Below, piece by piece: positions 47,541 to 64,000 of a DNA stretch of 64,000 nucleotides. A program made the position numbers and the translations under genes. How positions within the stretch are numbered: position 1 is the stretch's first letter; each line of letters begins with the position of its first letter. Source of the stretch: Anaeromyxobacter sp. Fw109-5 (GTDB lineage Bacteria; Myxococcota; Myxococcia; Myxococcales; Anaeromyxobacteraceae). The stretch lies in contig NC_009675.1 in NCBI RefSeq assembly GCF_000017505.1, forward strand, positions 4,592,501-4,656,500, given 5' to 3'. The notes beneath the pieces were generated by a model, which did not search any database, had not been told where the DNA came from, and saw only the letters and a list, made by a program, of their open reading frames with translations.

Positions 47541-47630
47541 GGAGGAGTGGCCGAGCGGTTTAAGGCGGCGGTCTTGAAAACCGCAGAGGGTTCACGCCCT
47601 CCGAAGGTTCGAATCCTTCCTCCTCCGCCA
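47541..47630 (+). tRNA. tRNA-Ser (anticodon UGA)
   Basis: Acceptor GGAGGAG pairs with CTCCTCC, anticodon loop CTTGAAA with TGA, a long variable arm typical of class II tRNA, T arm GAAGGTTCGAATCCTTC, and an encoded CCA end. Confidence 0.97.
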
Positions 47631-47651
47631 GGTGAAGGAGAACGAGGGTTC

Positions 47652-47741
47652 GGAAAGGTGGCCGAGAGGCCGAAGGCGCTGGTTTGCTAAACCAGTATAC
47701 GGGTAACCGTATCCAGGGTTCGAATCCCTGCCTTTCCGCCA
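47652..47741 (+). tRNA. tRNA-Ser (anticodon GCU)
   Basis: Acceptor GGAAAGG / CCTTTCC, anticodon loop TTGCTAA with GCT, a long variable arm (TATACGGGTAACCGTAT), T arm CAGGGTTCGAATCCCTG, and an encoded CCA end. It lies 21 bases after tRNA-Ser(UGA); probably one transcript. Confidence 0.97.
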
Positions 47742-47799
47742 GTCAGTCGTGCAGCAACCCGGCCCAGCGCATCGCGGCCGGCACAGTCGAATAGGTTTT

Positions 47800-47873
47800 G
47801 GGCCCTTAGCTCAGTTGGATAGAGCGTCGGACTACGAATCCGAAGGCCAGAGGTTCAAATCCTCTAGGGCCCG
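47800..47873 (+). tRNA. tRNA-Arg (anticodon ACG), island attachment site
   Basis: Acceptor GGGCCCT / AGGGCCC, anticodon loop CTACGAA with ACG (read as ICG after deamination), T arm AGAGGTTCAAATCCTCT. Unlike the two tRNA-Ser genes next to it, the gene is followed by CTA instead of an encoded CCA. With an integrase gene starting just downstream, this indicates that the 3' end of the gene is the attachment site and that the sequence after it comes from the island. Confidence 0.95.
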
Positions 47874-47884
47874 CTAGTAAATCC

Positions 47885-47925
47885 GAGGCCTTGCGTGCTC
47901 AACCGCGCAAGGCCTCGTGCTTTTT
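47885..47925 (+). terminator. intrinsic terminator after tRNA-Arg
   Basis: GAGGCCTTGCG pairs with CGCAAGGCCTC (11 bp, ten-base loop), followed by GTGC and TTTTT. It would end the tRNA transcript and, read from the other strand, could also act on the leftward integrase gene. Confidence 0.85.
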
Positions 47926-47993
47926 CGGCGCTTCTTACAGCCTTTCGCCGCACTGCGTTGACCCCTTCGACTGGCTTCGTGGCCAGCTCTCGT

Positions 47994-49091
47994 CTAGTCC
48001 GTCCGGGTGGAAAATTCGCCTCGAAAGGTGGGGGCGGCACCCTCCCGGCGCGCCGCGTCGATGCGCTCCACCGCGGCCTTGAGGTCCCCCTCGTCGATGA
48101 TGTTGTAGCGGTCGAAGACGCTCCGGGTCTTGTGGCCCGAGAGCTTCATCACGACCGATTCCGGCACGCCGCTCCGGCGCGCGTTCGTGACGAACGAACG
48201 GCGGAGGTCGTGGAACCAGATGCCCGCGTAGCCGGCGCGCTCGCAGGCGCGGCGGAGCATCTTGTTGTGCTCGCTCCAGGGCCGGCCGGTGTCCGGGTTC
48301 ACGAATACGTACGGCGAGTGGAGCTGGCGCGGGGTCGCGCGGAGGATCTCGAGCGCGCGGCTCGTGAGGTAGACGACGCGCGCCTCGTTCGTCTTCGTCT
48401 CCTTCGCCGAGAGGCGGATGCACCCGAGCCCGAGGTCCACCTGCTCCCAGCGCAGGAAGCGGAGCTCGGTCTTGCGGAGCCCGGTCTCGTAGTCGAACTC
48501 GATCACCGGCGCGAAGGTGGGCGGCGCCGCCTTCAGGATCCGCTCGAGCATGACCGGCTTCAGCACCATGTCGCGGGTGTTCGGCTCGTTGAGGAGCGGC
48601 ACCGCGGCGATGGGGTTCCGCACGAGCGTCCCGCACTCGATCGCGAAGTTGATGCAGCGCTTGAGCAGCGCGATCTCGCGGTCGATGGTGCCGGGCGCGG
48701 GAGGGCCACCGCGGCGGGTGGTCTCCTCGAAGCGCTTCTCCCGGTACTCCTCGACGTCCTTGCGCGTGAGCTTCGCGGCGCGCCGGCTGCCGAGGTGCTC
48801 GACGAGGTGGCGCGCCCGATCGACGTCGGACCGCCAGCTGTCGTTGTCGCGCCGGGTGATCGGCTCCCACGCCTTCCAGCAGTCCTCGACCGTCGTCTTC
48901 GCCTCGAGCTGCCGGTCGAACCAGCGGCCCTCGAACGCGTCGATCTCGAGCTTGGCGAGGAGCATCTTCGCGTGCTTCTGGCTCGGGATCTTCTTCACCC
49001 GGACCCGCTTCAGCTGCCCGCTGGGCAGCTTTATCCATGCATCGAGGCCGAACAGGGTCCGGCCGTCCTTCTCGTACTGGTAGACGCCCAT
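47994..49091 (-). CDS. tyrosine recombinase / integrase
   Basis: 365 residues. N-terminal AP2-like arm-binding region (MGVYQYEKDGRTLFGLDAWI), a core-binding SAM-like domain (~65-165), and a catalytic domain with Arg in YETGLRKTELRFLRW near 207, HDLRRSF near 298 (H-x-x-R), GHKTRSVFDRYN near 322 (His and the Tyr nucleophile): the complete RHRHY set. It integrates the island at the adjacent tRNA-Arg. ATG at 49091 after AAGGAGAAGCTC. Confidence 0.95.
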   Translation of the reverse strand: MGVYQYEKDGRTLFGLDAWIKLPSGQLKRVRVKKIPSQKHAKMLLAKLEIDAFEGRWFDRQLEAKTTVEDCWKAWEPITRRDNDSWRSDVDRARHLVEHLGSRRAAKLTRKDVEEYREKRFEETTRRGGPPAPGTIDREIALLKRCINFAIECGTLVRNPIAAVPLLNEPNTRDMVLKPVMLERILKAAPPTFAPVIEFDYETGLRKTELRFLRWEQVDLGLGCIRLSAKETKTNEARVVYLTSRALEILRATPRQLHSPYVFVNPDTGRPWSEHNKMLRRACERAGYAGIWFHDLRRSFVTNARRSGVPESVVMKLSGHKTRSVFDRYNIIDEGDLKAAVERIDAARREGAAPTFRGEFSTRTD

Positions 49092-49177
49092 GAGCTTCTC
49101 CTTGGCAGGCGGGCGTCGGAGGCGATTCTAGCGCGGGTCGCCGGGCCCGTGCTGCGCCCGGCGACCCGCACGAGCCG

Positions 49178-49582
49178 CTACCGAAGCGCGAGGACCGCGT
49201 CGAGCTCCGCCCGGTGGAACCGCATCCGCCGCGGGCCGAAGCGGTGGACGGGGACCTGGCCGCGGCGGACCGCCTGGTACAGTGCGCGGACCGAGGGGAG
49301 ACGCAGGTACGCGGCCGCCTCCTGCGGCGTCAGGGTCTCGCCGGTGCCCTCGCCGCCGGCGGAGCGCCGCGCCGCCCTGCCCTCCCCGTGGAGCGCCGCG
49401 ACCTCCTGGCGGAGGGCGCGGAGCTCGATGCGCAGCAGCGCGCAGGGGTTCGCGACCTGGCCGCAGCTCGCGCACCTCGCCTCGGCCGAGGGCGGCTCCC
49501 GGTACTCGGCGTTGGCCTCGAACGAGCAGGGCACGCAGATCCACGCCCGAGGCGGCGCCGCCGCGAGGCTAGTCCCGGTCAC
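49178..49582 (-). CDS. zinc-ribbon plus excisionase-type HTH protein
   Basis: 134 residues from a GTG at 49582 that has GGAGG six bases upstream. The N-terminal half has two cysteine pairs (CVPC near 17, CASCGQ near 38), a likely zinc ribbon. After a helix (LRIELRALRQEVAALHGEG) the C-terminal half is an HTH_17/excisionase-like DNA-binding domain (LTPQEAAAYLRLPSVRALYQ ... RRGQVPVHRFGPRRMRFHRA). It sits directly upstream of the integrase gene in the same direction, as expected for a recombination directionality factor or a regulator of the integrase. The zinc ribbon is not usual for excisionases. Confidence 0.78.
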   Translation of the reverse strand: MTGTSLAAAPPRAWICVPCSFEANAEYREPPSAEARCASCGQVANPCALLRIELRALRQEVAALHGEGRAARRSAGGEGTGETLTPQEAAAYLRLPSVRALYQAVRRGQVPVHRFGPRRMRFHRAELDAVLALR

Positions 49583-49967
49583 CGGAGGCCTCCACCCCCG
49601 CGTCAACGCCGTGCACCGGCCTGGCCGTGCCGTCGCGCGGCGCCACAGCCACGCCGGCGTGGGTGGGCTTCCGCTCGGGCGCGGGCGTCGCGTCGGCGCG
49701 GGTGCTCGCCGTCTTGGCGGCGTGGAGCTTCGCCACGTCGGCCGCCTTGCTGGCGACGGCGGACACCGTCGCGTCGATCGCGCCGTCGCCGAGCGCCTGC
49801 GACAGGGCCGGCGCGTTGTCGATGAGAGCGGCCGCGACGTCGAGGACGGCGCAGCCGAGGCCGCCCTTGTTCACGCGGCAGGCCTTCGCCGCGCGCCGCA
49901 GGTGCTTCGCGCTCTTGTTGAAGATGACATCGGGGTCAGCGGGGGTCTTTCCGCGAGTCTCGTTCAC
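49569..49967 (-). CDS. small hypothetical island protein
   Basis: 132 residues from GTG at 49967, with AAGGAG eight bases upstream. The N-terminal part is basic with two Cys (KSAKHLRRAAKACRVNKGGL GCAV region); the middle is an Ala-rich helix (ALSQALGDGAIDATVSAVAS); the tail is Thr/Pro-rich. The 3' end overlaps the zinc-ribbon gene by 14 bases. No family is recognised. First gene of the integrase-side transcript. Confidence 0.65.
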   Translation of the reverse strand: MNETRGKTPADPDVIFNKSAKHLRRAAKACRVNKGGLGCAVLDVAAALIDNAPALSQALGDGAIDATVSAVASKAADVAKLHAAKTASTRADATPAPERKPTHAGVAVAPRDGTARPVHGVDAGVEASGDRD

Positions 49968-50639: not shown

Positions 50640-51611
50640 CTACCTCACGGTCGCGCTTCGGAAGATCTCCGTCCGGTGGAACTCGAGGTAACGCTCCTGA
50701 TCCCGCGAGAACTTGCCGATGATCGGGGGCCGGTCCGGGTCGACACCAAGCTTCACCAGGGTCCTCTCGTCCGCTACGGGAGAAACGAGCAGCTGCCCGT
50801 CAGCGAATGAGATGAACCCCCGATCGAACAGGAAGTCAGCGTGCGGGGCGAGCAGGAGGCCGTTGTGCGCGCTCAACCGCTCGTCGTTCGTGGCGTGCCG
50901 CCACGGCTTGATGTGGCTCGCGATCAGGTACGCCGGGTTGGACACCTTCGTGATTCGGCACTCCGGTTCGATGCGAGCGACATTCGCGCGGAAGAGCCCC
51001 TGGCCGATACGTGCCTTCACGAGCGCCTCGCGCTCGGTCGAGTCGAGACGTGCTCGCTGAAGCTCCTCGAGCTCATGCCGCTCCCATACCTCGCGCTCCG
51101 GCTCCTCGGCGGACGCGACGAGCGTTGCTCTCGCGTCGCGCGCCTGGAGCGGGTTCCCGGCGGCAACGACGAGCGACCAGACCAGGTTCCCGAGATCGGA
51201 CGGCAGCGCTGCGAGGTAGACGGATTGCAGCCCCTTCCCGTTCGCCGCGTTGAGGGGCGAGTACTTCTCAGGGAGCAGCGGGCGGATTCGCTCCCACGCG
51301 CTACGGGGCGCAACAGGTGCCGTCAGCCGGACGTACTCGACATCGACGCGATAGCCGATCTGGCTCCAGTTGCGGCCGACCGCCCCGAACTCGTCCGGTT
51401 TCGGCGCGTCGTACCCGAAAGAACGAATCGTGCCGTACGCTCGAATCGCTCCTTCCCAGTACGAGAACACCAGGTCGCCGGGAGCGACGACCTTCATGTT
51501 CTCGTAGAACTGGTTTCGGCTGAGATCTGCGCGGCGCTTCGGGGACCAGAGATACCCGCCGCCGATCTCGTGGCGGTACGTCTGCTTCTGGTTCACCCAC
51601 CAGTACTGCAT
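50640..51611 (-). CDS. EVE-HNH endonuclease (type IV-like)
   Basis: 323 residues. The N-terminal ~140 residues look like an EVE domain (YWWVNQKQTYRHEIGGGYLW ... APGDLVFSYWEGAIRAYGTI), a PUA-like pocket that reads modified bases. The C-terminal part is an HNH_2 nuclease (about 215-275: ECRITKVSNPAYLIASHIKP, then LSAHNGLLLAPHADFLFDRG). EVE fused to HNH is a known arrangement of modification-dependent restriction enzymes that cut phage DNA with altered bases. It stands 61 bases after the helicase gene on the same strand. The catalytic histidines of SHIKPW and the metal-binding LLLAPHADFLFD are intact. Confidence 0.88.
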   Translation of the reverse strand: MQYWWVNQKQTYRHEIGGGYLWSPKRRADLSRNQFYENMKVVAPGDLVFSYWEGAIRAYGTIRSFGYDAPKPDEFGAVGRNWSQIGYRVDVEYVRLTAPVAPRSAWERIRPLLPEKYSPLNAANGKGLQSVYLAALPSDLGNLVWSLVVAAGNPLQARDARATLVASAEEPEREVWERHELEELQRARLDSTEREALVKARIGQGLFRANVARIEPECRITKVSNPAYLIASHIKPWRHATNDERLSAHNGLLLAPHADFLFDRGFISFADGQLLVSPVADERTLVKLGVDPDRPPIIGKFSRDQERYLEFHRTEIFRSATVR

Positions 51612-51672: not shown

Positions 51673-54600
51673 TCAGGCTGAGGCCACAGCCGCGGCGATG
51701 ACCAGCGCCCAACGTGTATCGATCCACCGCGTCGCTTCCTTCGGCGTCCCCTCGAGATAGCGGGCCAGGTTCACGCGCGCCTCGTCCAGCACGCCGCCCT
51801 TCGCCTCGACGTCGTCCCTCGCGACGAGCACCCAGGCCAAGTCGACGAGCGACACCGTCCGCTCGCGGAACCCGTCAGGGCCGCCGTCGATGCGGACGCC
51901 GCCCCGCTCCGCAAGGCCGACAACCCGGCACCGCTTTCCGTCCCGCTCGATCCAGTTCCCGCCGAACCGCTCGACGGCCGCGGTCGCCAGTGCTCGGGCG
52001 CGCTCGAGCTGGGGCTCGGGCAGGCGTCGCGACGCGGTCCGCCCCACCCCGAGGTGCTTCCAGGTACCGTAATCGACCTCGGGGATCACCCACGCTCGCT
52101 CGTCGTCGTTCCACCGCCCGACGCCGCAGTACCTCCAGGTCGTCCCCTCGCCGCGGGCGAATACGAACGCGGTCTCGCCAGGCCGGCGCGCCGGCACCGG
52201 ACGCGTAACCCGGTCCGGCGCGGACAGAACACCCCGCCCGTCCACCATCACGAACAGGTGTCCGCCGACGCGCAGCCCGTCGCGCGGGTCGGCGTCGAGC
52301 CCGAAGGCCTTCCCGACCTCCCCGTCCTCGACGTGCGCGCCGACCTCCGGGGCGAGCGCCTCAGGTGACACGTGTTCCGCCAGGATCGCGACGGGGACGG
52401 TGCGCTCCTGCGCCGCGAACGGCGCGATCCCGGGATTGTCCGACGCGAGGAGCCAGCGTCCATCGCGCCGCACGATCCGCTTCACCTGGTAGGCGCCGTC
52501 GCCGCTCCCGTCGCTGACCTGGACGAGCGCCACCCGGCCCTCGACGGCGCCGAGCCCGGCGCCACGGGCGTACCGGAAGAGGAGCCAGTCGCCGTCGCGG
52601 ATGGGATCCCCGCCGCCCGCCATCGAGTTGCCCGCAGCACGGACCGCGAAGAGCTCGGCCCCGCGACTCGGGACCGGAAGCACGACCTCCTCCGCCTCGG
52701 GTGCGCCCGCCGTCGGGGCACCCGCGGCGCCGGCTGCCGCGCGAAGCGTTGGGAACGCCACCACGCGCCCGCGCGAAGGCAGATCGATCATCTGCCCGAG
52801 CGGCTCCACGTTCCACCCGTCGGGCGACCGGAAGAAGCGAATACGGAAGGCGGTCCCCGCCCTGCCGACCGCCGGCCCGAACCAAGCGCGCAGGATGTCG
52901 GGGAGCAGGTTCTTCGTCGAGCCGACCGGGTGCGCCACGTTGCAGGCGATCTTCACGAAGCGGAAGCGCCACCAAGCTCCGGTGGGCGAACCGGCGCCAG
53001 AGTGCGCGAGCCGGACGTCGGTGTCGCCGGTCGGCAGGTCGGGCCGGGACATCCGCGGCGGGAGCATCAGGATCGGATCGCGCTCGTTCGAGATGACCTT
53101 GCAGACGAAGGCATCGCCCTGGACCTCCGGCTCAAACCGACGGCGATACTGCGCGAGCCGATAGTCCACCAGCTCCCGCGTCATCTCGACGACCGTCTCC
53201 TCAAGCCCGGTCGGGATCGGCAGCTTCGGCAAGAACCGATCGCCTTCGACCGCGAACCACCGCTTCGGCTCAGCAGGCGTCCCGGCCCACGCCTTCACCG
53301 GGTTCTTCCGCCAGTACGCGAGCCACGCCCGCTCGGCGGGTACACGCGGGTCCGGCAGCTCGTTTACGCCGTTGAGGTCGCGGAACAGCTCGGGGGAGCG
53401 GACGAGGATCTGGTGGCTACGCCGCGCGAGCACGTCGAGATTGACGCCCGTTCCGAGCGCCTCGAGCTCGATGACTGCCTCGAGCAGCACCAGCTTGAAC
53501 GACTTCTCGAGGACGGTCGTCTCGAGCTCGCGGTACCAATCGCGCCCGGCTTCGAGAACGCGCTCCTCATCCGCGGTGAGGTGGCCTTCCGAGCGGACGA
53601 ACTCGAACCAGCTACCGTGCACCTGACGCAGCACGGAGGGCGAGTAGCCGGAGCGGTACAGCTCGCCAATCGTGGGGCGCTCGCCTCGCGCCACCTGAAG
53701 CTCCCGATACGCGCGCTCGACCGCGTTTGCGCCCGAAGGAAGAAGCCGTCGGAGCAGATCGATCGCATCGAGCTGAACATCAATGGAGCACCCGGGAGGC
53801 AGCTCGGCCTCCCCGCCCTCAAGGAATGCGCGGAGGTCCGGCCGCGCATCGCCAAGCGAGAGCAGCGTCCGCACGCGGTCCAGGAAGACGCGGTGGTTTC
53901 CGACGAAGTCTATGACCGTGAGCCGCTCCTTGCCCTCGGCGATGCGGAGCCCGCGCCCGAGCTGCTGCAGGAACACCACCGGCGACTCTGTCGGCCGGAG
54001 CATCACGACCCGATCGACGAGGGGAACGTCGACCCCCTCGTTGAACAGGTCGACCGCGCATACCGCGTCGATGCGACCCGCGGCGAGGTCGGCGAGTGCG
54101 CGGCTGCGGTCGTCCGAGCCGGGGTCGGAGTGCACCGCCCGCACGCGCACGCCGCGCCCCTCGAGCCACCTCTTCGCGAACTCGGCATGCGGGATCGAAC
54201 AGCAGAATACGAGCGTCCGCATCCCGCCGTGCTCACCGAGCGCGCTCCAGAGCCGCTCCATCCGCTCCTGCGTCTGAACGGCTTCCTCGAGCCGCTTCGG
54301 GTCGAACCGGCGATTCCGCCACGGAATGTTGTCGTGCGAGTAGTCGACCGTGTCCTTCAGGCCGAAGTAGGCGAACGGAACGAGCCGCTTCGCCTCGATG
54401 CCGACGCCGAGGTCGGCACGGAACGGCAGGTTGTCATCGAAGAGGCCGAGGACGTCTCCCTCATCGGCGCGATCCGGCGTGGCCGTGAGGCCGAGCAGGA
54501 ATCCCGGATCGATGCGCGAGAGGATGCGCCGGTAGCTCGGCGCCTCGGCGTGATGGACCTCATCGACGACCACGTAGTCGAACCGCTCCGCCGCGAGCCG

Positions 54601-55929
54601 CTCGAGGTTCTCGGGCCGGGAAAGCTTCTGGACCGACGCGACGACGATGTCCGCCTCCAGCTCGGACCGGTCCTCGGCGAACCAGCCCACCCGCAGGTCG
54701 GGCATGGCACCGCGGAGGACGCGCCGGAAAGTCGTCGCGGCCTGGACGAGCAGCTCGCGCCGGTGCGCGATGAAGAGGACGCGGATCGGGTGATCGAGCG
54801 TGCTGCGGAAGGCATCCGCATCGTATGCGGCGAGGAGTGTCTTGCCGAGGCCGGTCGCCATCACGACGAGGGCGCGCTTCTCGCCGTCCGCACGCGTCGC
54901 GGCGAGCGCGTCGAGCGCATCGCGCTGGATCTCGTGCGGATCCGGCGCCGCCGTGAGCGGCTCCGCCTCCGTCTCGCCGGGCGGCAGCGCGACTGGTGCG
55001 ACCCGCGCGCGGGCGGCATAGGCGGTGACCCACTCCAGCGTGAGCGGTGTCGCGCCCGCCCAGACGGCCTCGAACGCCTCCTTGACGCTCGCGTATGCGA
55101 TCGGATCACGCGAGCGGTCCGTCCGGAGGTTCCACTCAACTCCCGTCCAGAGCGCGGAGGCGGAGACGTTCGAGCTGCCGACGAACGCGACGCCCAGGCC
55201 CTCCCCCTCGAACCGCCATGACTTCGGATGAAACGAACGGCTACCCGCGAGCCGCGCCGTCTCGACGATCCGCGCCTCGAAGCGCGGGGGCGCGCCGGCG
55301 GGCGCGAGCGCGCCCTGCCAGTCAAGCATCCGCTTCAGCGCCTCGGCCTGCGTTATGTCGAGATAGTCGCCGGTGATGAGCCGGATGCGGGCTCCCCGAT
55401 CCGCAGCCGAGAAGACTGGGTCCTGGAGCAGCTCGAGCCCGCTGTCCTGGACGAAGGCCGCGACGATCGCGATCTCGCGGGCGCCCGCGAACAGCGGCCG
55501 GATGTGCGCAAGGAAAGGGTCCGCCGTCCCGCCTACGACCAGCGGCTCCGCGGCGAGGCGCCTGTAGTTCCCCTTCCACGGGATGACGTGCCGCACGCCA
55601 CCCGCCGGGTCGTCCATGTCGCCCTCGTAGCGGGGGATGACGTGGACGTGGAGGTGCATGACCGTCTGGCCGGCATGCACGCCGACGTTGAAACCGACGT
55701 TGTAGCCAGCGGGCTGGTGCTCCGCATCGAGCTGCAGTTTCACAACCTCGACGAGGTCGAGCATTGCGCGCTGCTCGTCACGCGTGGCGTCGAACCAATC
55801 ACGCACTTGGCGGCGCGCTATGATGAGCGTGTGGCCGTCGGTGACGGGAAACGTATCTCGGATCGCGAACGCCAGCTCGTTGGAGACGAGCCACTCGCGC
55901 TCGGGGATATCCAGGAAAATTGAGCGCAT
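51673..55929 (-). CDS. HIT-PLD-SF2 helicase-S24-like multidomain protein
   Basis: 1418 residues. Domain order: HIT-type hydrolase/transferase (1-125, HLHVH at 92-96); phospholipase-D-like nuclease (about 135-290, H234-x-K236 ... GSSN 251-254); SF2 helicase (about 330-690: Walker A ATGLGKT 358-364, DEVH 456-459, TATP 482-485, motif VI QQLGRGLR 655-662); a long middle region; and an S24/LexA-like part (about 1085-1175: GNSMAGG with S1102, YQVKR with K1150, forming a Ser-Lys dyad). The rest (1180-1418) has no recognised fold. PLD-helicases occur with DUF499 and DUF1156 proteins in defence islands; here the gene follows the DUF499 gene. The start is the ATG at 55929; upstream in-frame sequence lacks HIT homology. 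Confidence 0.85.
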   Translation of the reverse strand: MRSIFLDIPEREWLVSNELAFAIRDTFPVTDGHTLIIARRQVRDWFDATRDEQRAMLDLVEVVKLQLDAEHQPAGYNVGFNVGVHAGQTVMHLHVHVIPRYEGDMDDPAGGVRHVIPWKGNYRRLAAEPLVVGGTADPFLAHIRPLFAGAREIAIVAAFVQDSGLELLQDPVFSAADRGARIRLITGDYLDITQAEALKRMLDWQGALAPAGAPPRFEARIVETARLAGSRSFHPKSWRFEGEGLGVAFVGSSNVSASALWTGVEWNLRTDRSRDPIAYASVKEAFEAVWAGATPLTLEWVTAYAARARVAPVALPPGETEAEPLTAAPDPHEIQRDALDALAATRADGEKRALVVMATGLGKTLLAAYDADAFRSTLDHPIRVLFIAHRRELLVQAATTFRRVLRGAMPDLRVGWFAEDRSELEADIVVASVQKLSRPENLERLAAERFDYVVVDEVHHAEAPSYRRILSRIDPGFLLGLTATPDRADEGDVLGLFDDNLPFRADLGVGIEAKRLVPFAYFGLKDTVDYSHDNIPWRNRRFDPKRLEEAVQTQERMERLWSALGEHGGMRTLVFCCSIPHAEFAKRWLEGRGVRVRAVHSDPGSDDRSRALADLAAGRIDAVCAVDLFNEGVDVPLVDRVVMLRPTESPVVFLQQLGRGLRIAEGKERLTVIDFVGNHRVFLDRVRTLLSLGDARPDLRAFLEGGEAELPPGCSIDVQLDAIDLLRRLLPSGANAVERAYRELQVARGERPTIGELYRSGYSPSVLRQVHGSWFEFVRSEGHLTADEERVLEAGRDWYRELETTVLEKSFKLVLLEAVIELEALGTGVNLDVLARRSHQILVRSPELFRDLNGVNELPDPRVPAERAWLAYWRKNPVKAWAGTPAEPKRWFAVEGDRFLPKLPIPTGLEETVVEMTRELVDYRLAQYRRRFEPEVQGDAFVCKVISNERDPILMLPPRMSRPDLPTGDTDVRLAHSGAGSPTGAWWRFRFVKIACNVAHPVGSTKNLLPDILRAWFGPAVGRAGTAFRIRFFRSPDGWNVEPLGQMIDLPSRGRVVAFPTLRAAAGAAGAPTAGAPEAEEVVLPVPSRGAELFAVRAAGNSMAGGGDPIRDGDWLLFRYARGAGLGAVEGRVALVQVSDGSGDGAYQVKRIVRRDGRWLLASDNPGIAPFAAQERTVPVAILAEHVSPEALAPEVGAHVEDGEVGKAFGLDADPRDGLRVGGHLFVMVDGRGVLSAPDRVTRPVPARRPGETAFVFARGEGTTWRYCGVGRWNDDERAWVIPEVDYGTWKHLGVGRTASRRLPEPQLERARALATAAVERFGGNWIERDGKRCRVVGLAERGGVRIDGGPDGFRERTVSLVDLAWVLVARDDVEAKGGVLDEARVNLARYLEGTPKEATRWIDTRWALVIAAAVASA

Positions 55930-58802: not shown

Positions 58803-59396
58803 TCACCGTCGCGCGAACCGCTCGAAGCGTCCGGTGTTCGAGTTGAGCTTCCACATCTGAAAGAAGCCGTAAGGGAACGTGCTGGCCTCGTTTCTCGAGC
58901 CTACGACGACCAGCGTGTCACCGACGAGTGCGACGCGGTCGGCGATTTCCATCGCCTCCACGACGCGTGCGCCGAGCGCGGAGACAAACCCGGGGCCGTC
59001 CGATGCGTCGGGCCGGTAGCAGAACACGACGCGGAGCCCGCATCGGACGCAGAGCACTTTCCAGAGCGAGTACGCGACGAGGTCCGCGTCGGCCGAGTTC
59101 TCGAGCTCGCACGCGGCCACAGGGAACTGCCACCCGGTTCCGGCCTTGCGAAACGCTGTCACGTCGAGGGACAGGTACTCGTTTCGCCGAACCGGCAACA
59201 CGGAGCATCTGTGGCCCCTGCCCGCTGCCGCCAAGCCGAGCCGAGTGAACGAAGCCACGACGACGCCGGTGAGAGCTGACGTCCACGCGGCGAGGTCCGA
59301 GCGCAACGAGGCGTCGCGGAGCGCGTCTGCGGCAGAGCGTTCCTCCTCAATGGCGCCGTAGAACTCGGACGCCCATGTGGTGGCGAAGGGGGTCAT
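58803..59396 (-). CDS. small protein of the methylase/ATPase operon (nuclease-fold-like)
   Basis: 197 residues. Its position between the DUF1156 methylase and DUF499 genes is where DUF3780 proteins occur in related systems, but identity to that family cannot be checked here. The centre, YLSLDVTAFRKAG ... FPVAACELENSADADLVAYS followed by LWKVLCVRCGLRVVF, resembles a PD-(D/E)xK core (Asp, then Glu-x-Glu after a strand). The Lys of E-x-K is replaced by Asn (ELEN), which some inactive or divergent members show. ATG at 59396 overlaps the methylase stop (ATGA). Confidence 0.7.
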   Translation of the reverse strand: MTPFATTWASEFYGAIEEERSAADALRDASLRSDLAAWTSALTGVVVASFTRLGLAAAGRGHRCSVLPVRRNEYLSLDVTAFRKAGTGWQFPVAACELENSADADLVAYSLWKVLCVRCGLRVVFCYRPDASDGPGFVSALGARVVEAMEIADRVALVGDTLVVVGSRNEASTFPYGFFQMWKLNSNTGRFERFARR

Positions 59397-62296
59397 CCGA
59401 AGCCGAGCCCCTTCTTGCGCCCGAGCACTCCGTCCACCCACCGCTTCTCCTCCGATCCGGTTGGGTAGAGGGCGGATAGGGACTGCGCGAGGGTCCAGAA
59501 CTGGCCCTGGTTTCCGACGCCCTCCGCGACGAGGAAGCGTTTCAGCCCTTCGCCGCGACCCGATGCGAACAGGAGCATGGCCTGGTGTACTCGGTCCAAG
59601 GTGGTCGCGGCGGCCTTCGGCGCGCCGCGCTCGCCCCAGCCCTGCGCTTTCGCGGCTTCCTGCAGCTCGGCGAACAACCCCATCTGCTTCTTCGAGGCCC
59701 GCTTCGCCGGCACGACTCCTTCGTCGCCTGCGAACAGGTGCTTGGTTCGCTCTGCGACCGACAGCAACCGCGCCTGGTTCGCTTTGACCACCACGACATG
59801 GGGGAGCTGCTCGAGACGGGCGCCCAGCCCCTGGGCGATCTTTCGCGCGGCGTCGTACTCGAGGCTGAAACCATCCGCTCCGTCTGCGTCCAATTCGGCG
59901 TCGTCGCTCGCCGGCGCATCCCCGCCGCCGTCGTCCGCGGCCGAGGCTCGAGCTCGGTCTGATGCAAGCGTCCACAGCCACATGGCCGTGATCCTCGCGT
60001 CCTCCTCGAGGCGAGCCGACTCGGCTTCGTCGAAGATCATCGCCAGCGCCTCGCGCGAGACAGCCGCCCATACGTGCTCGAGGTACTCCTCGAGCGGCAC
60101 GACCTCGCCCGAAACTTTCTCGACGCGCGCATACCGAGAGAAGAGTTCGAGGGCCGGGCCGAGGCACGCGAAGATCGCGTCGGCGCCCACGACGCCCTCG
60201 CGAGCGAGCCGCGGCATCCACTCCGCGATTCGCTTGGGAAGCGCCGCGAGCACGTCCCGCCAATCACCCACCGTATCCGTGATGAGCCGCCCATCTGGAT
60301 ACTCGCGCGGCCGGCACACGAGATGAACCGACGAGGCGAGCACGGCCGAGTTGCGCGCGCGCAGCCGGCCGGCGTTCTCCGTGTCGATCGGCCACGACGC
60401 CGTGACGACCCATCCCGCGTCGAGCATCGCAGCTAGCAGGTCCTCCCAGCCGCTCGTCGACTTGTGCGCGAAGATGACGACGCCGATGCCATCCGGCCGG
60501 GTGACACGCCTCGCCTCGGTGAGGGCGGCGGTCATGACGCGGCGGTAGTAGGCCCGGTCCTTCCCCGTGGCCGGGTTGACGATGCACTCGTCGTCCCGAG
60601 GCACCAGAGGCGTCTTGAAGAGCTCGGGATGATCGGGACCGAGCACGCGCCGGAGCCAGACGTAGAAGAAGTCGGAGAGGTCCGCGTACGGTATCGCGTC
60701 GTAGTAAGGCGGATCCGTCACGAGGAGATGCGCGCAGTCGGACGGCAACGGGTGATGGCTCGCAGACGCCATGCCCACGTCCGCCGCCCCGGTGCTCACG
60801 TGCGCGTTCCTCAACCCACGGAGCACGTGCTCGACGGCGCCCGCCCACGACCCGGAGGACGATGCGAGCGGATTCGCCTCGCCGAAGTCCCAGATGATCG
60901 GGAGGGCCTGGCGGGTGAAGAGGTGCGGCAACGCCGAGCCGCTTGGATTCCAGGAGCAACCCGTGTTCTGGTAATCGCATAGACGGTCGACGGCGAGCGC
61001 GAGACAGGCTCGTACCGCCACACCGAGCCCGTGCGCCGCCCGATCCTCGGCCATCACGCCTTGAACCAGGCGCACCAGCGTCGTGATCGTGACGAGCTGC
61101 CGCGGCGTATAGATGTCGCGCCACCGGAGCATGCCGTACCGCTGCACGCGGAATCCGAGTGTTCCCACCGGAGGCAGCGGCTCGTCGGGGAGCTCTGGCA
61201 GGCCCAAGTCGCCTCTCCGCCGGAGGAGCGCCACCTTCTTCTTCGCAGCGGCAATCGCATTCAGGTCGGCCTTCGCCGGACGCCTGAACGTTCGCTCGCC
61301 CGACTCTTCTCCTACCGCGACCGCGACGAGAAGCGCGTCGTCTGCACCGCCGCCCCGCTCCGAGAGCTGAGCGCGAATGCGCTCGACCGGCGTCGTGTAC
61401 CCGCACTTCAGGCAAGTTGCTGCCCCCCGCCGAACGGTGGGGTCCGGAAACGAGCCGAGGGGGCCTTCCGCGATGCTGAAGCGGGGCGTGGGCCCCTCCC
61501 ATCCGTCCAGCCGGAGCCCGACAGACCGGTCACCGCGCCGCGTCAGGTGGAACTTGCTCGTGAGAGGGACGTCCGCGCCGCACTTCGGGCCCTCGCACCG
61601 GATGCGCCTGAACGAGATGGACGCGATCGGCTGCTGCCCCTGCACAACGGGATAGAACGCGTTCAGCTCTCCCCGCGCCTCCTCGCCGACTCGCGCGCCC
61701 CAGCGCTCGACCTCCTCGAACAGCTTTTCGCCGAACCGCTGGACGTACTCGAGCGTGACCTTGCTGATGAGAGTCGCGACCGGATTCAAGTCGGACGCAT
61801 ACGCCGACATTCCGAGCCGCAGCCCCTCGAGCGGAATGGATCCGCCACCACAGAACGGGTCCGCGAGGAACGCGCCTCCGTTTTTCCCGAAGAGCGCCTG
61901 GTGCGCGGACGCGACAAGCTCGCGAGCCGCGTCTCGATACGTTGGATCGGTCGCCCTGTCCCAAGACGCGAAGTCCGAGACGAGCCGGAGCAGCCCGCGT
62001 CGCAGTTCCTCTGCTTCGAGCTGCGCGCTGTCTGGTCCCCGGTAGATACGGCTGAGTACCACACGCGCCTTGTCCCTGAACTCCTGCGGGCAAGCGGAGT
62101 CCGCGGGGTCGAGCAAGGCGGCAGCAAGGGCCGCGGCACGACACGAGGGCAGAGGCTTGCGCGCCCACCAGATGTGGATCGCCGTGATGTGGCCGTGGTG
62201 TGCCGAGCGGCCATCGCGCGCGGACTCCGAGATCTGGCCGATCGGAAGATCGACCTCGATGAGGCGCCGCGGAAATGTCCCCGCGGATGCGCTCAT
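59393..62296 (-). CDS. DUF1156-type DNA methyltransferase (downstream copy)
   Basis: 967 residues. It opens with the DUF1156 region (FPRRLIEVDLPIGQISESAR ... HIWWARKPLP). SAM motif I is DPFCGGGSIPLEGLRLG (146-162), and the catalytic DPPYYDAIPYADLSDFFYVW is near 528, so the target base is an exocyclic amino group (m6A or m4C). Two Cys pairs (CEGPKCG, CLKCG, about 240-315) may bind zinc. A Lys/Ala-rich C-terminal part ends in EEKRWVDGVLGRKKGLGFG. The start overlaps the upstream paralogue's stop (ATGA). It either protects host DNA or uses methylation as part of phage sensing. Confidence 0.9.
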   Translation of the reverse strand: MSASAGTFPRRLIEVDLPIGQISESARDGRSAHHGHITAIHIWWARKPLPSCRAAALAAALLDPADSACPQEFRDKARVVLSRIYRGPDSAQLEAEELRRGLLRLVSDFASWDRATDPTYRDAARELVASAHQALFGKNGGAFLADPFCGGGSIPLEGLRLGMSAYASDLNPVATLISKVTLEYVQRFGEKLFEEVERWGARVGEEARGELNAFYPVVQGQQPIASISFRRIRCEGPKCGADVPLTSKFHLTRRGDRSVGLRLDGWEGPTPRFSIAEGPLGSFPDPTVRRGAATCLKCGYTTPVERIRAQLSERGGGADDALLVAVAVGEESGERTFRRPAKADLNAIAAAKKKVALLRRRGDLGLPELPDEPLPPVGTLGFRVQRYGMLRWRDIYTPRQLVTITTLVRLVQGVMAEDRAAHGLGVAVRACLALAVDRLCDYQNTGCSWNPSGSALPHLFTRQALPIIWDFGEANPLASSSGSWAGAVEHVLRGLRNAHVSTGAADVGMASASHHPLPSDCAHLLVTDPPYYDAIPYADLSDFFYVWLRRVLGPDHPELFKTPLVPRDDECIVNPATGKDRAYYRRVMTAALTEARRVTRPDGIGVVIFAHKSTSGWEDLLAAMLDAGWVVTASWPIDTENAGRLRARNSAVLASSVHLVCRPREYPDGRLITDTVGDWRDVLAALPKRIAEWMPRLAREGVVGADAIFACLGPALELFSRYARVEKVSGEVVPLEEYLEHVWAAVSREALAMIFDEAESARLEEDARITAMWLWTLASDRARASAADDGGGDAPASDDAELDADGADGFSLEYDAARKIAQGLGARLEQLPHVVVVKANQARLLSVAERTKHLFAGDEGVVPAKRASKKQMGLFAELQEAAKAQGWGERGAPKAAATTLDRVHQAMLLFASGRGEGLKRFLVAEGVGNQGQFWTLAQSLSALYPTGSEEKRWVDGVLGRKKGLGFG

Positions 62297-64000
62297 CCGA
62301 AGCCAAGTCCCTTCTTTCGAGCAAGGACGCCGTCGACCCACCGCTTTTCGTCGGAACCGCTCGGATAAAGAGCCGACAGCGACTGCGCTAGCTTCCAGAA
62401 TTGCGCCTGCATGCCGATGCGATCTTCCACAAGGAAGCGCTTCAGCGCATCACTGCGCCCGCCCCCAAAAAGAAGCATCGCTTGATGCACGCGGTCGAGA
62501 GTCGTCGTTCCAGCCTTTGGCGCGCCGCCCTCTCCCCACGCCTCCTCGCCGGCAGGTCGCTCGAGGTCCGTGAATAGCACCGCCTGTTTCTTGGCGGCCG
62601 CCTTCTTGCCGGCAGGCACGCCTTCGTGCCTGCCGAACAAGTATTTCGCGCGTTCGGCTACTGCAATAAGGCGAGCCTTGTCCTTCTTGATTTCGACTAC
62701 TTGCTGAAGTTCATCGAATCGGACACCGAGTCCCTGCGCGATCTTCCTCGCGGTGTCGAACGGAAGAACCGCACCCCCAGATCCGCCCCTGTCCCCCTGA
62801 TCGTCATCCTCATCCTCGTCGGGCACCTGATCCTGCTCATCGCCCGAGTCACCGCTCGGCTCGGGTCCAGCAAGAGTCCACAGCCACATCGCAGTCAGGC
62901 GCGCATCTGCCTCGAGGCCGGCAGTGTCCGCGTCTCGAAAGATCGACGCGAGCGCCTCGCGAGCTACTGCTGCCCAGACGTGCTCCAGGTACTCGCGAAG
63001 CGGCACCGCCTCGCCGTTCACCTTCTCGACACGCGAGTAGCGAGAGAAGATCTCCAATGCTGGCCCGAGACACGCGAAAATCGCATCTGCACCCACAACT
63101 CCCTCGTGAGCTAGGCGCGGAAGCCATTGGTGGATACGCTCAGGGAGCTCAGCTAGGACGACCTTCCATTCACCGACGTGTGCTTGATCAACTCCCCTGG
63201 GCCTGCACACGATGTGAACAGAAGACGCCAGCGATGCGGTCCCCATCGCATTGACCCGGCTTCCCATCTCCGTATCGATCGGCCAAGAGGCCGTCGCGAC
63301 CCAACCTGCGCGGATCAGCGAGCCGAGAATTGCCTCCCATCCCTCCGTGCTCTTGTGCGCGAACACCACGACCCCGATGCCATCGGGGGCCGTAACGCGC
63401 CTTGCCTCCGCGAGGCACCGATACATCTGCTCCTCATAAAAGGCCTGATCCTTCTGACGTCCGGTCGGCCCGTACTTGCGAGTCGGGTTCCAAATCGCTT
63501 CCTCGTCCTTCGGCGTTGTCCGGGAACTGAAGAGGTCAGGGGCGTCGTCGAAGAGGACACGCCGCAGCCAGACATAGAAGAAGTCAGAAAGATCGGCGTA
63601 CGGGACAGCGTCGTAGTAAGGAGGGTCCGTAACAAGCGCAGCCGCGGCGTCATCCGGCAGCGGGTGTTCAGCCGCCGAAGCCGATTGCACTGTCGCTTTT
63701 CCAGGCGCCTCGAACGAGCACTGCCGAAGTGCGTATGCGGTTCGCTCGAACATGCTTCGCCAGGACCCACTCGCATCGGACAGCGAAACCGTTTCCGCAA
63801 AATCCCACACGATCGGGATGGCTTGCCGCGCAAACAGGTTAACGGGGCATTCCGCATCCGGCTTCCATCGAGTGCACGAATTCCCTAGATCTGTCGCCTT
63901 CGAGAGAGACAACGCCAGACAAAGGCGGACCGCCTTCCTCATTTCAGGCGAGCCGATGTCCGCACCCGCTTCGCGGCACAAACGCACGAACGTCGTATGA
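62293..64000 (-). CDS. DUF1156-type DNA methyltransferase (upstream copy), cut by window edge
   Basis: At least 569 residues; the gene continues beyond 64000, so its N-terminal DUF1156 region and SAM motif I are not visible. Visible: IPIVWDFAETVSLSDASGSW, the catalytic VTDPPYYDAVPYADLSDFFY, and the same end as its neighbour (SDEKRWVDGVLARKKGLGFG). It is a paralogue of the downstream gene, with the insert RTTPKDEEAIWNPTRKYG after the catalytic motif, absent from the other copy, which may alter specificity. The overlap with the next start (ATGA) makes it the first visible gene of the operon. Confidence 0.9.
   Translation of the reverse strand, partial: HTTFVRLCREAGADIGSPEMRKAVRLCLALSLSKATDLGNSCTRWKPDAECPVNLFARQAIPIVWDFAETVSLSDASGSWRSMFERTAYALRQCSFEAPGKATVQSASAAEHPLPDDAAAALVTDPPYYDAVPYADLSDFFYVWLRRVLFDDAPDLFSSRTTPKDEEAIWNPTRKYGPTGRQKDQAFYEEQMYRCLAEARRVTAPDGIGVVVFAHKSTEGWEAILGSLIRAGWVATASWPIDTEMGSRVNAMGTASLASSVHIVCRPRGVDQAHVGEWKVVLAELPERIHQWLPRLAHEGVVGADAIFACLGPALEIFSRYSRVEKVNGEAVPLREYLEHVWAAVAREALASIFRDADTAGLEADARLTAMWLWTLAGPEPSGDSGDEQDQVPDEDEDDDQGDRGGSGGAVLPFDTARKIAQGLGVRFDELQQVVEIKKDKARLIAVAERAKYLFGRHEGVPAGKKAAAKKQAVLFTDLERPAGEEAWGEGGAPKAGTTTLDRVHQAMLLFGGGRSDALKRFLVEDRIGMQAQFWKLAQSLSALYPSGSDEKRWVDGVLARKKGLGFG

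Follow-up and report, generated by a model that had tools for sequence, protein, structure and literature searches.

Within a 64,000-nucleotide stretch of the Anaeromyxobacter sp. Fw109-5 genome (contig NC_009675.1, positions 4,592,501 to 4,656,500; hereafter the window) we identified a gene for a single 1418-residue protein. Its parts follow one another in the order HIT domain, PLD nuclease, SF2 helicase/translocase, helical coupler, B3-like DNA-binding domain, S24 domain, SRA-like reader and C-terminal domain (Table 1). We propose, at about even odds (roughly 0.5), that this is an ATP- and modification-dependent (type IV) restriction enzyme of the SauUSI class that carries a HIT domain and a RecA-responsive, self-cleaving S24 off-switch between its cutter and its reader. 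The SauUSI class itself is known. No paper on HIT or S24 fused to SauUSI-type enzymes was found in a literature search that covered mainly freely accessible journals. An earlier note, made from the sequence alone, had called the full combination unusual. This holds in that no description was found, but the protein belongs to a family with about 25 full-length relatives and is not a single oddity.

A SauUSI-type enzyme with additional domains

In an alignment, the N-termini of relatives agree with the predicted start codon. SauUSI, a type IV restriction enzyme from Staphylococcus aureus (PDB 7clg), is matched by residues 130-778 with an E value of 8e-76, and PADLOC scores the protein with its mREase_IV profile (2e-92), not as HmaA. 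The catalytic residues are intact. The HIT part has the motif H-phi-H-phi-H-phi-phi (HLHVHVI, 92-98), the PLD half-site has H234-x-K236 and GSSN at 251-254, the helicase has GLGKT at 360-364 (K363) and DEVHH at 456, and the S24 part has GNSM at 1100-1103 (S1102) and V1149-K1150-R1151. The HIT motif is kept in relatives that cover the region, the PLD H-x-K and N are conserved in relatives that cover theirs without a frameshift, and the helicase motifs are also kept. The PLDc_2 match (1e-4) falls below Pfam's own cut-off; nonetheless, the PLD region is covered by the SauUSI match, and the PLD of relatives matches Pfam RE_NgoFVII.

The earlier note had already read HIT, PLD, SF2 and S24 in one uninterrupted chain, which the reading frame, Pfam and the relatives bear out, and every residue number in it is correct (HLHVH with H94, the HxK...N half-site with H234, the helicase motifs with K363, GNSM with S1102, and K1150). 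The five parts that it counted are present, but the count was too low: we found eight.

The additional parts emerged from fold searches. Residues 700-1418 were modelled with AlphaFold (mean predicted local distance difference test score, pLDDT, 81), and the model was searched with VIA-align. In this model residues 938-1048 resemble the B3 domain of R.NgoAVII (4rdm; Z 7.1, root-mean-square deviation, rmsd, 2.8, 95 residues aligned), and several plant B3 domains also match (Z 4.6-6.5). This Z value is moderate and the B3 label is less certain than the other domain labels. For residues 1185-1418, modelled separately (pLDDT 91), the top match is SauUSI's own SRA domain (7clg residues 803-953; Z 8.4, rmsd 2.7, 102 residues aligned), and the top 13 matches are all SRA or SRA-like modification/restriction readers. 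The last 120 residues gave weak Tudor-like matches only, and no fold is claimed for them. Pfam DUF3427, whose C-terminal part corresponds to the SauUSI reader region (PMC3874153; PMC7913695), has no match in the window protein; three relatives (L038, L039 and L040) do match it. According to the models, the middle that the earlier note had left as unknown consists of SauUSI's coupler and then a B3-like domain, and the C-terminal part corresponds to the SRA reader of SauUSI. Thus, the protein is predicted to be a modification-dependent restriction enzyme and not an unclassified fusion.

PLD nuclease, SF2 motor, helical coupler and C-terminal SRA reader occur in SauUSI in identical order (PMC7913695). 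Compared with SauUSI, the window protein adds the N-terminal HIT domain, the B3-like domain, a LexA-type S24 domain, with its putative cleavage site, ahead of the SRA, and a further domain at the C-terminus. BfiI and R.NgoAVII likewise join a PLD nuclease with a B3-type DNA-binding domain; unlike these enzymes, the window protein has a SauUSI-type helicase between PLD and B3, plus HIT, S24 and SRA.

The S24 module and its putative cleavage site

The modelled S24 region folds as S24, with Z scores of 13-14 to LexA/CI-type domains. Residues 1048-1193 align with the lambda CI hyper-cleavable fragment, which includes the cleavage region (2hnf; Z 13.9, rmsd 3.0, 120 residues aligned). LexA (3k2z) matches at Z 13.0, and UmuD (8gmt, Z 10.9), CI and LexA from RecA complexes match at Z 10.9-12.9. 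All 33 relatives that extend over the catalytic Ser have it, and the dyad Lys is kept in 31 of the 32 that could be evaluated (L039 is included after a one-residue alignment shift; L034, which runs off its contig, is excluded).

Upstream of the catalytic Ser, Gly1067 is invariant in all 33 sequences and residue 1066 is either Ala (31) or Cys (2). P1060 and A1065 are invariant too, but the stretch 1045-1098 is otherwise variable (mean modal frequency 0.62). The distance from this Gly to the Ser is 34-37 residues among the relatives, 35 in the window protein, and also 35 in the LexA of the same genome (counted by hand on the sequence). In Escherichia coli the spacing is 34 in LexA (A84-G85, S119) and 35 in UmuD (C24-G25, S60). 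The conserved A/C-G at LexA spacing is the strongest argument for self-cleavage. Self-cleavage or regulated release had been suggested in the earlier note, and the cleavage idea is strongly supported, at the level of sequence and model, by the LexA/CI fold, the near-universal dyad and the invariant A/C-G.

The module shares with LexA, lambda CI and UmuD the C-terminal fold, the Ser-Lys dyad and the Ala/Cys-Gly bond 34-37 residues upstream. It differs in sitting on a nuclease-translocase and an SRA reader, not on a repressor or polymerase partner. No helix-turn-helix family was matched in the window protein by Pfam, and HIT-PLD-SF2 occupies the position of LexA's winged helix. The genome, which carries two fusions (see below), also has a single LexA and two full-length matches to the RecA family.

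Relatives and lineages

Relatives were collected by surveying 195 genomes of the phylum and scanning genome contigs. About 25 are full-length, with 54-68% identity and the same order of parts; further ones are partial or frameshifted. They come from Myxococcota and a few other phyla. Hosts include Anaeromyxobacter oryzae, Minicystis rosea, other Polyangiaceae and metagenome-assembled genomes, one of which is assigned to Planctomycetota. The same genome also encodes a paralog 20 kb upstream (L009:12098-16168, minus strand; G000:C1:4668095-4672250) that shares 67% identity with the window protein over residues 59-1411, its one break being a frameshift within the N-terminal half of HIT. An assembly join or frameshift artefact, a concern of the earlier note, is excluded by this paralog and by the full-length relatives with the same order. 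Frameshifts recur among the relatives (L046, L044, L045 and L040), often at the HIT/PLD junction, with decay or phase variation as candidate causes.

One relative (L039) has the order HIT-PLD-SF2-S24-DUF3427 and another (L038) has HIT-PLD-SF2-DUF3427 with no S24 match, indicating that S24 is a module placed directly before the reader. In L040 the order is PLD-SF2-DUF3427, with HIT in another frame. A second lineage, represented by proteins from Pseudoalteromonas (L086) and Acidobacteria (L049), is separate in the PLD-SF2 tree (support 98/91). These proteins have the order PLD-SF2-coupler-S24 with Cys-Gly at 36, and neither HIT nor SRA was detected in them. Thus, S24-bearing SauUSI-like enzymes form a broader, sparse class, of which the present form is one of two. 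The Pseudoalteromonas gene (L086:3953-6904) is on a plasmid, and a methyltransferase gene is located directly upstream. Scans of viral contigs with the window protein and with the Pseudoalteromonas protein returned zero relatives, and phage records gave partial PLD-helicase matches only.

Proposed mechanism and alternatives

Restriction enzymes must avoid destroying a host with damaged DNA. In the enzyme considered here, the S24 module appears to be inserted between a cutting half (PLD, SF2 motor, coupler and B3-like domain) and the C-terminal SRA reader. As long as the protein is intact, the SRA and the B3-like domain would together locate foreign modified DNA; by analogy with SauUSI biochemistry, the motor would translocate and paired PLD domains would cut. 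We infer that RecA filaments on single-stranded DNA, arising when host DNA is damaged or when the enzyme itself makes breaks, would stimulate S24 to hydrolyse Ala1066-Gly1067 using Ser1102 and Lys1150. The products would be HIT-PLD-SF2-coupler-B3 and S24-SRA-C-terminal domain. Cleavage restricted to DNA with 5mC or 5hmC is characteristic of SauUSI-type enzymes. SauUSI functions as a dimer whose SRA activates the ATPase on methylated target DNA (PMC7913695). Because the SRA is needed for this activation, its loss is expected to inactivate the enzyme; with reader parted from cutter, specific restriction would be off. By this comparison, the switch probably works in the off direction. It would be a one-chain counterpart of restriction alleviation, comparable in purpose to that of the E. 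coli type I enzyme EcoKI, which is brought about by an outside protease, ClpXP (PMC11109961). A LexA-type damage sensor seems to be built into the enzyme, sited where cleavage would split reader from cutter; if true, this would be a direct link from the SOS signal to restriction enzyme activity.

Several points weigh against this reading. Domains with a LexA fold can be retained for dimerisation. Undamaged host DNA is normally spared by type IV enzymes, which therefore need an off-switch less than type I enzymes do, and cleavage could instead arm the nuclease. The S24 of the L086/L049 lineage is C-terminal without a detected SRA, so separation of cutter and reader, judged from these sequences, is not universal, and L049 carries Arg at the position of the dyad Lys. 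A search for LexA boxes upstream of the fusion genes of relatives, made with the Myxococcus xanthus motif, gave none. The B3 and SRA assignments depend on moderate Z values from predicted models.

If RecA-stimulated self-cleavage arms the enzyme, loss of S24 and SRA would lift an inhibition or the need for modified bases, and the PLD-helicase-B3 part would then degrade DNA during infection or act as an abortive effector. After cleavage the nuclease would still carry the B3-like domain, which could be sufficient to guide it, and cleavage in the L086/L049 lineage would remove S24 only. However, removal of an SRA that SauUSI requires to activate its ATPase on target DNA (PMC7913695) is expected to inactivate, and a freed nuclease would be dangerous for a host with damaged DNA. 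We consider arming possible but on balance unlikely. A scheme in which RecA filaments trigger the self-cut, the nuclease changes from SRA-guided to B3-guided or unguided, and HIT strips AMP from DNA ends as aprataxin does, blocking resealing by a phage ligase, seems improbable. Alternatively, S24 may be silent in the cell and retained between B3 and SRA for dimerisation or as a spacer. The C-terminal domains of LexA and CI dimerise, SauUSI is a dimer (PMC7913695), and SauUSI relatives without S24 exist (L038 and L040). A scaffold would not need a universal Ser, a near-universal Lys and A/C-G at LexA spacing next to a linker that is far more variable, which makes this explanation clearly unlikely. 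Scarcely credible is that the gene is a horizontally spread relic without working regulation. Broken copies are known: the paralog has its HIT frameshift, the A. oryzae copy has two frameshifts, three further relatives are broken at the HIT/PLD junction, and one copy is interrupted at its S24 part by an apparent transposase gene. The window copy, however, is unbroken, and among intact copies S24 is conserved to about the same degree as the other domains.

The remaining alternative concerns the genes next to the fusion. A complete Hma system (HmaA, two DUF1156 methyltransferases, a product of ~195 residues, and DUF499) is located upstream, and the fusion lies on the same strand as the DUF499 gene, 61 bases downstream of it, with an HNH nuclease next. 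The Hma system was named in PMC8565338 and is grouped with 'BREX-related' (BR) systems in PMC12839542. Type-2 BR systems employ an HKD-helicase fusion (PMC12839542), and here a PLD (HKD) nuclease fused to an SF2 helicase adjoins Hma. The protein could be the nuclease-helicase subunit of this system, working only with Hma. In Type-2 BR systems, however, a Swi2/Snf2 helicase is in the HmaA slot, with DUF3780, whereas here the operon has its own HmaA with a NOV_C domain and the motor of the fusion is SauUSI-type. No DUF499 or DUF1156 homolog was found beside the fusion at any other fusion locus, nor Hma in the other sampled Anaeromyxobacter. A dedicated Hma subunit is thus very improbable and largely refuted, and the idea that the fusion is itself the HmaA is rejected in view of the intact HmaA upstream and of relatives without Hma. 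Given the absence of DUF499 and DUF1156 beside the other fusions, the gene is an independent module that came to lie next to Hma, and the Hma operon is complete without it.

The HIT domain and nucleotide hydrolases

The HIT part resembles PDB 2eo4, the Ap4A phosphorylase 3wo5 and FHIT. In Hymenobacter canadensis (L085) the genes for a MutT-type hydrolase and a SauUSI homolog are preceded, on the same strand, by one for a HIT protein with the same GGVRH tail as the window protein; an IS630 transposase gene is interposed in the locus. In Lactiplantibacillus and Latilactobacillus (L088 and L093) the gene directly upstream of the SauUSI homolog encodes a MutT-type hydrolase, and such hydrolases are reported next to SauUSI homologs in Streptococcus (PMC7641849). 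The association is recurrent but not universal: a MutT gene was near the SauUSI homolog in three of ten annotated plasmid loci examined. Because HIT and MutT-type hydrolases are also found beside SauUSI homologs elsewhere, HIT is probably, by analogy, an end- or nucleotide-cleaning activity. It would most likely remove a nucleotide product, for example AMP on DNA ends or unusual nucleotides. The earlier note had proposed nucleotide signalling or AMP removal for this part, and both are candidate roles. The fusion hints at why nucleotide hydrolases of the HIT and MutT types accompany SauUSI-like enzymes.

The MutT-type deoxynucleoside triphosphate pyrophosphohydrolases encoded immediately upstream of the SauUSI homologs at L088, L093 and L085 possibly pair nucleotide-pool cleaning with modification-dependent restriction. 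Standalone HIT genes in other Myxococcota (L071-L074 and L084) are not supported as split partners, as no SauUSI, S24 or Hma homolog is near them. ThsC of Thoeris type II is also a HIT-family protein in a phage-defence setting (PMC8565338), but it is a separate gene beside the Thoeris genes and is not fused to a restriction enzyme.

Genomic context

Table 1. Parts of the fusion gene and features of its neighbourhood. Positions are in the window unless preceded by a locus number (L009, L010).
Feature	Position	Strand	Remarks
Whole fusion gene, 1418 aa	51673..55929	(-)	Single uninterrupted frame, ATG at 55929
HIT domain, residues 1-125	55555..55929	(-)	HLHVH 92-96 and conserved GGVRHVIP tail; Pfam HIT 3e-22
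PLD nuclease half-site, residues 126-320	54970..55554	(-)	H234, K236, N254; PLDc_2; SauUSI 7clg match
SF2 helicase/translocase, residues 330-700	53830..54942	(-)	ResIII 4e-34, Helicase_C 1e-13; PADLOC mREase_IV
Helical coupler, residues 701-931	53137..53829	(-)	First part matches SauUSI; model mostly helical
B3-like DNA-binding domain, residues 938-1048	52786..53118	(-)	R.NgoAVII B3 4rdm; moderate confidence
Putative self-cleavage bond Ala1066-Gly1067	52729..52734	(-)	A/C-G upstream of catalytic Ser, 33/33 relatives
S24 (LexA/CI-type) domain, residues 1068-1190	52360..52728	(-)	Ser1102, Lys1150; Pfam Peptidase_S24 3e-7 and fold matches
SRA-like modified-base reader, residues 1191-1296	52042..52359	(-)	SauUSI SRA 7clg, Z 8.4
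C-terminal alpha/beta domain, residues 1300-1418	51676..52032	(-)	Relatives and model; about half of family without it
HNH_2 nuclease	50640-51611	(-)	N-terminus YWWVNQKQTYRHE... resembles EVE-type reader by eye
~195-residue product between HmaB and DUF499	58803-59390	(-)	No family match in three libraries
Two tandem DUF1156 methyltransferases	59393-62341 and 62293-65241	(-)	53% identical; second extends past window end
HmaA helicase with NOV_C domain	L009:1734-5207		E 1e-191; separate intact gene upstream
Complete ZacABC operon (PADLOC)	L009:5607-12083	(+)	Between Hma operon and paralog
ThsB-type TIR, 8-oxoguanine glycosylase-like, TIR-TGT fusion, trypsin-TIR-TPR, metallophosphatase	L009:16854-20000 and L010:188-4508	(-)	Consecutive
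tRNA-Ser, tRNA-Ser, tRNA-Arg, then integrase and HTH_17 gene	47541-49606		Integrase adjoins tRNA-Arg at 47800

The published Hma layout has a single DUF1156 methyltransferase, versus the two here. The HNH_2 protein, judged from its sequence, is probably another modification-dependent nuclease. A clustering of neighbours that used all open reading frames was dominated by antisense frames of the GC-rich DNA.

A duplicate of the 3' end of tRNA-Arg, as expected of an attachment site, was not found: the sequence is single-copy genome-wide. Near its own fusion copy, A. oryzae encodes an integrase (L046:17746-18834) that is 84% identical to the one in the window, with different cargo. The row of TIR and metallophosphatase genes is more of a defence island.

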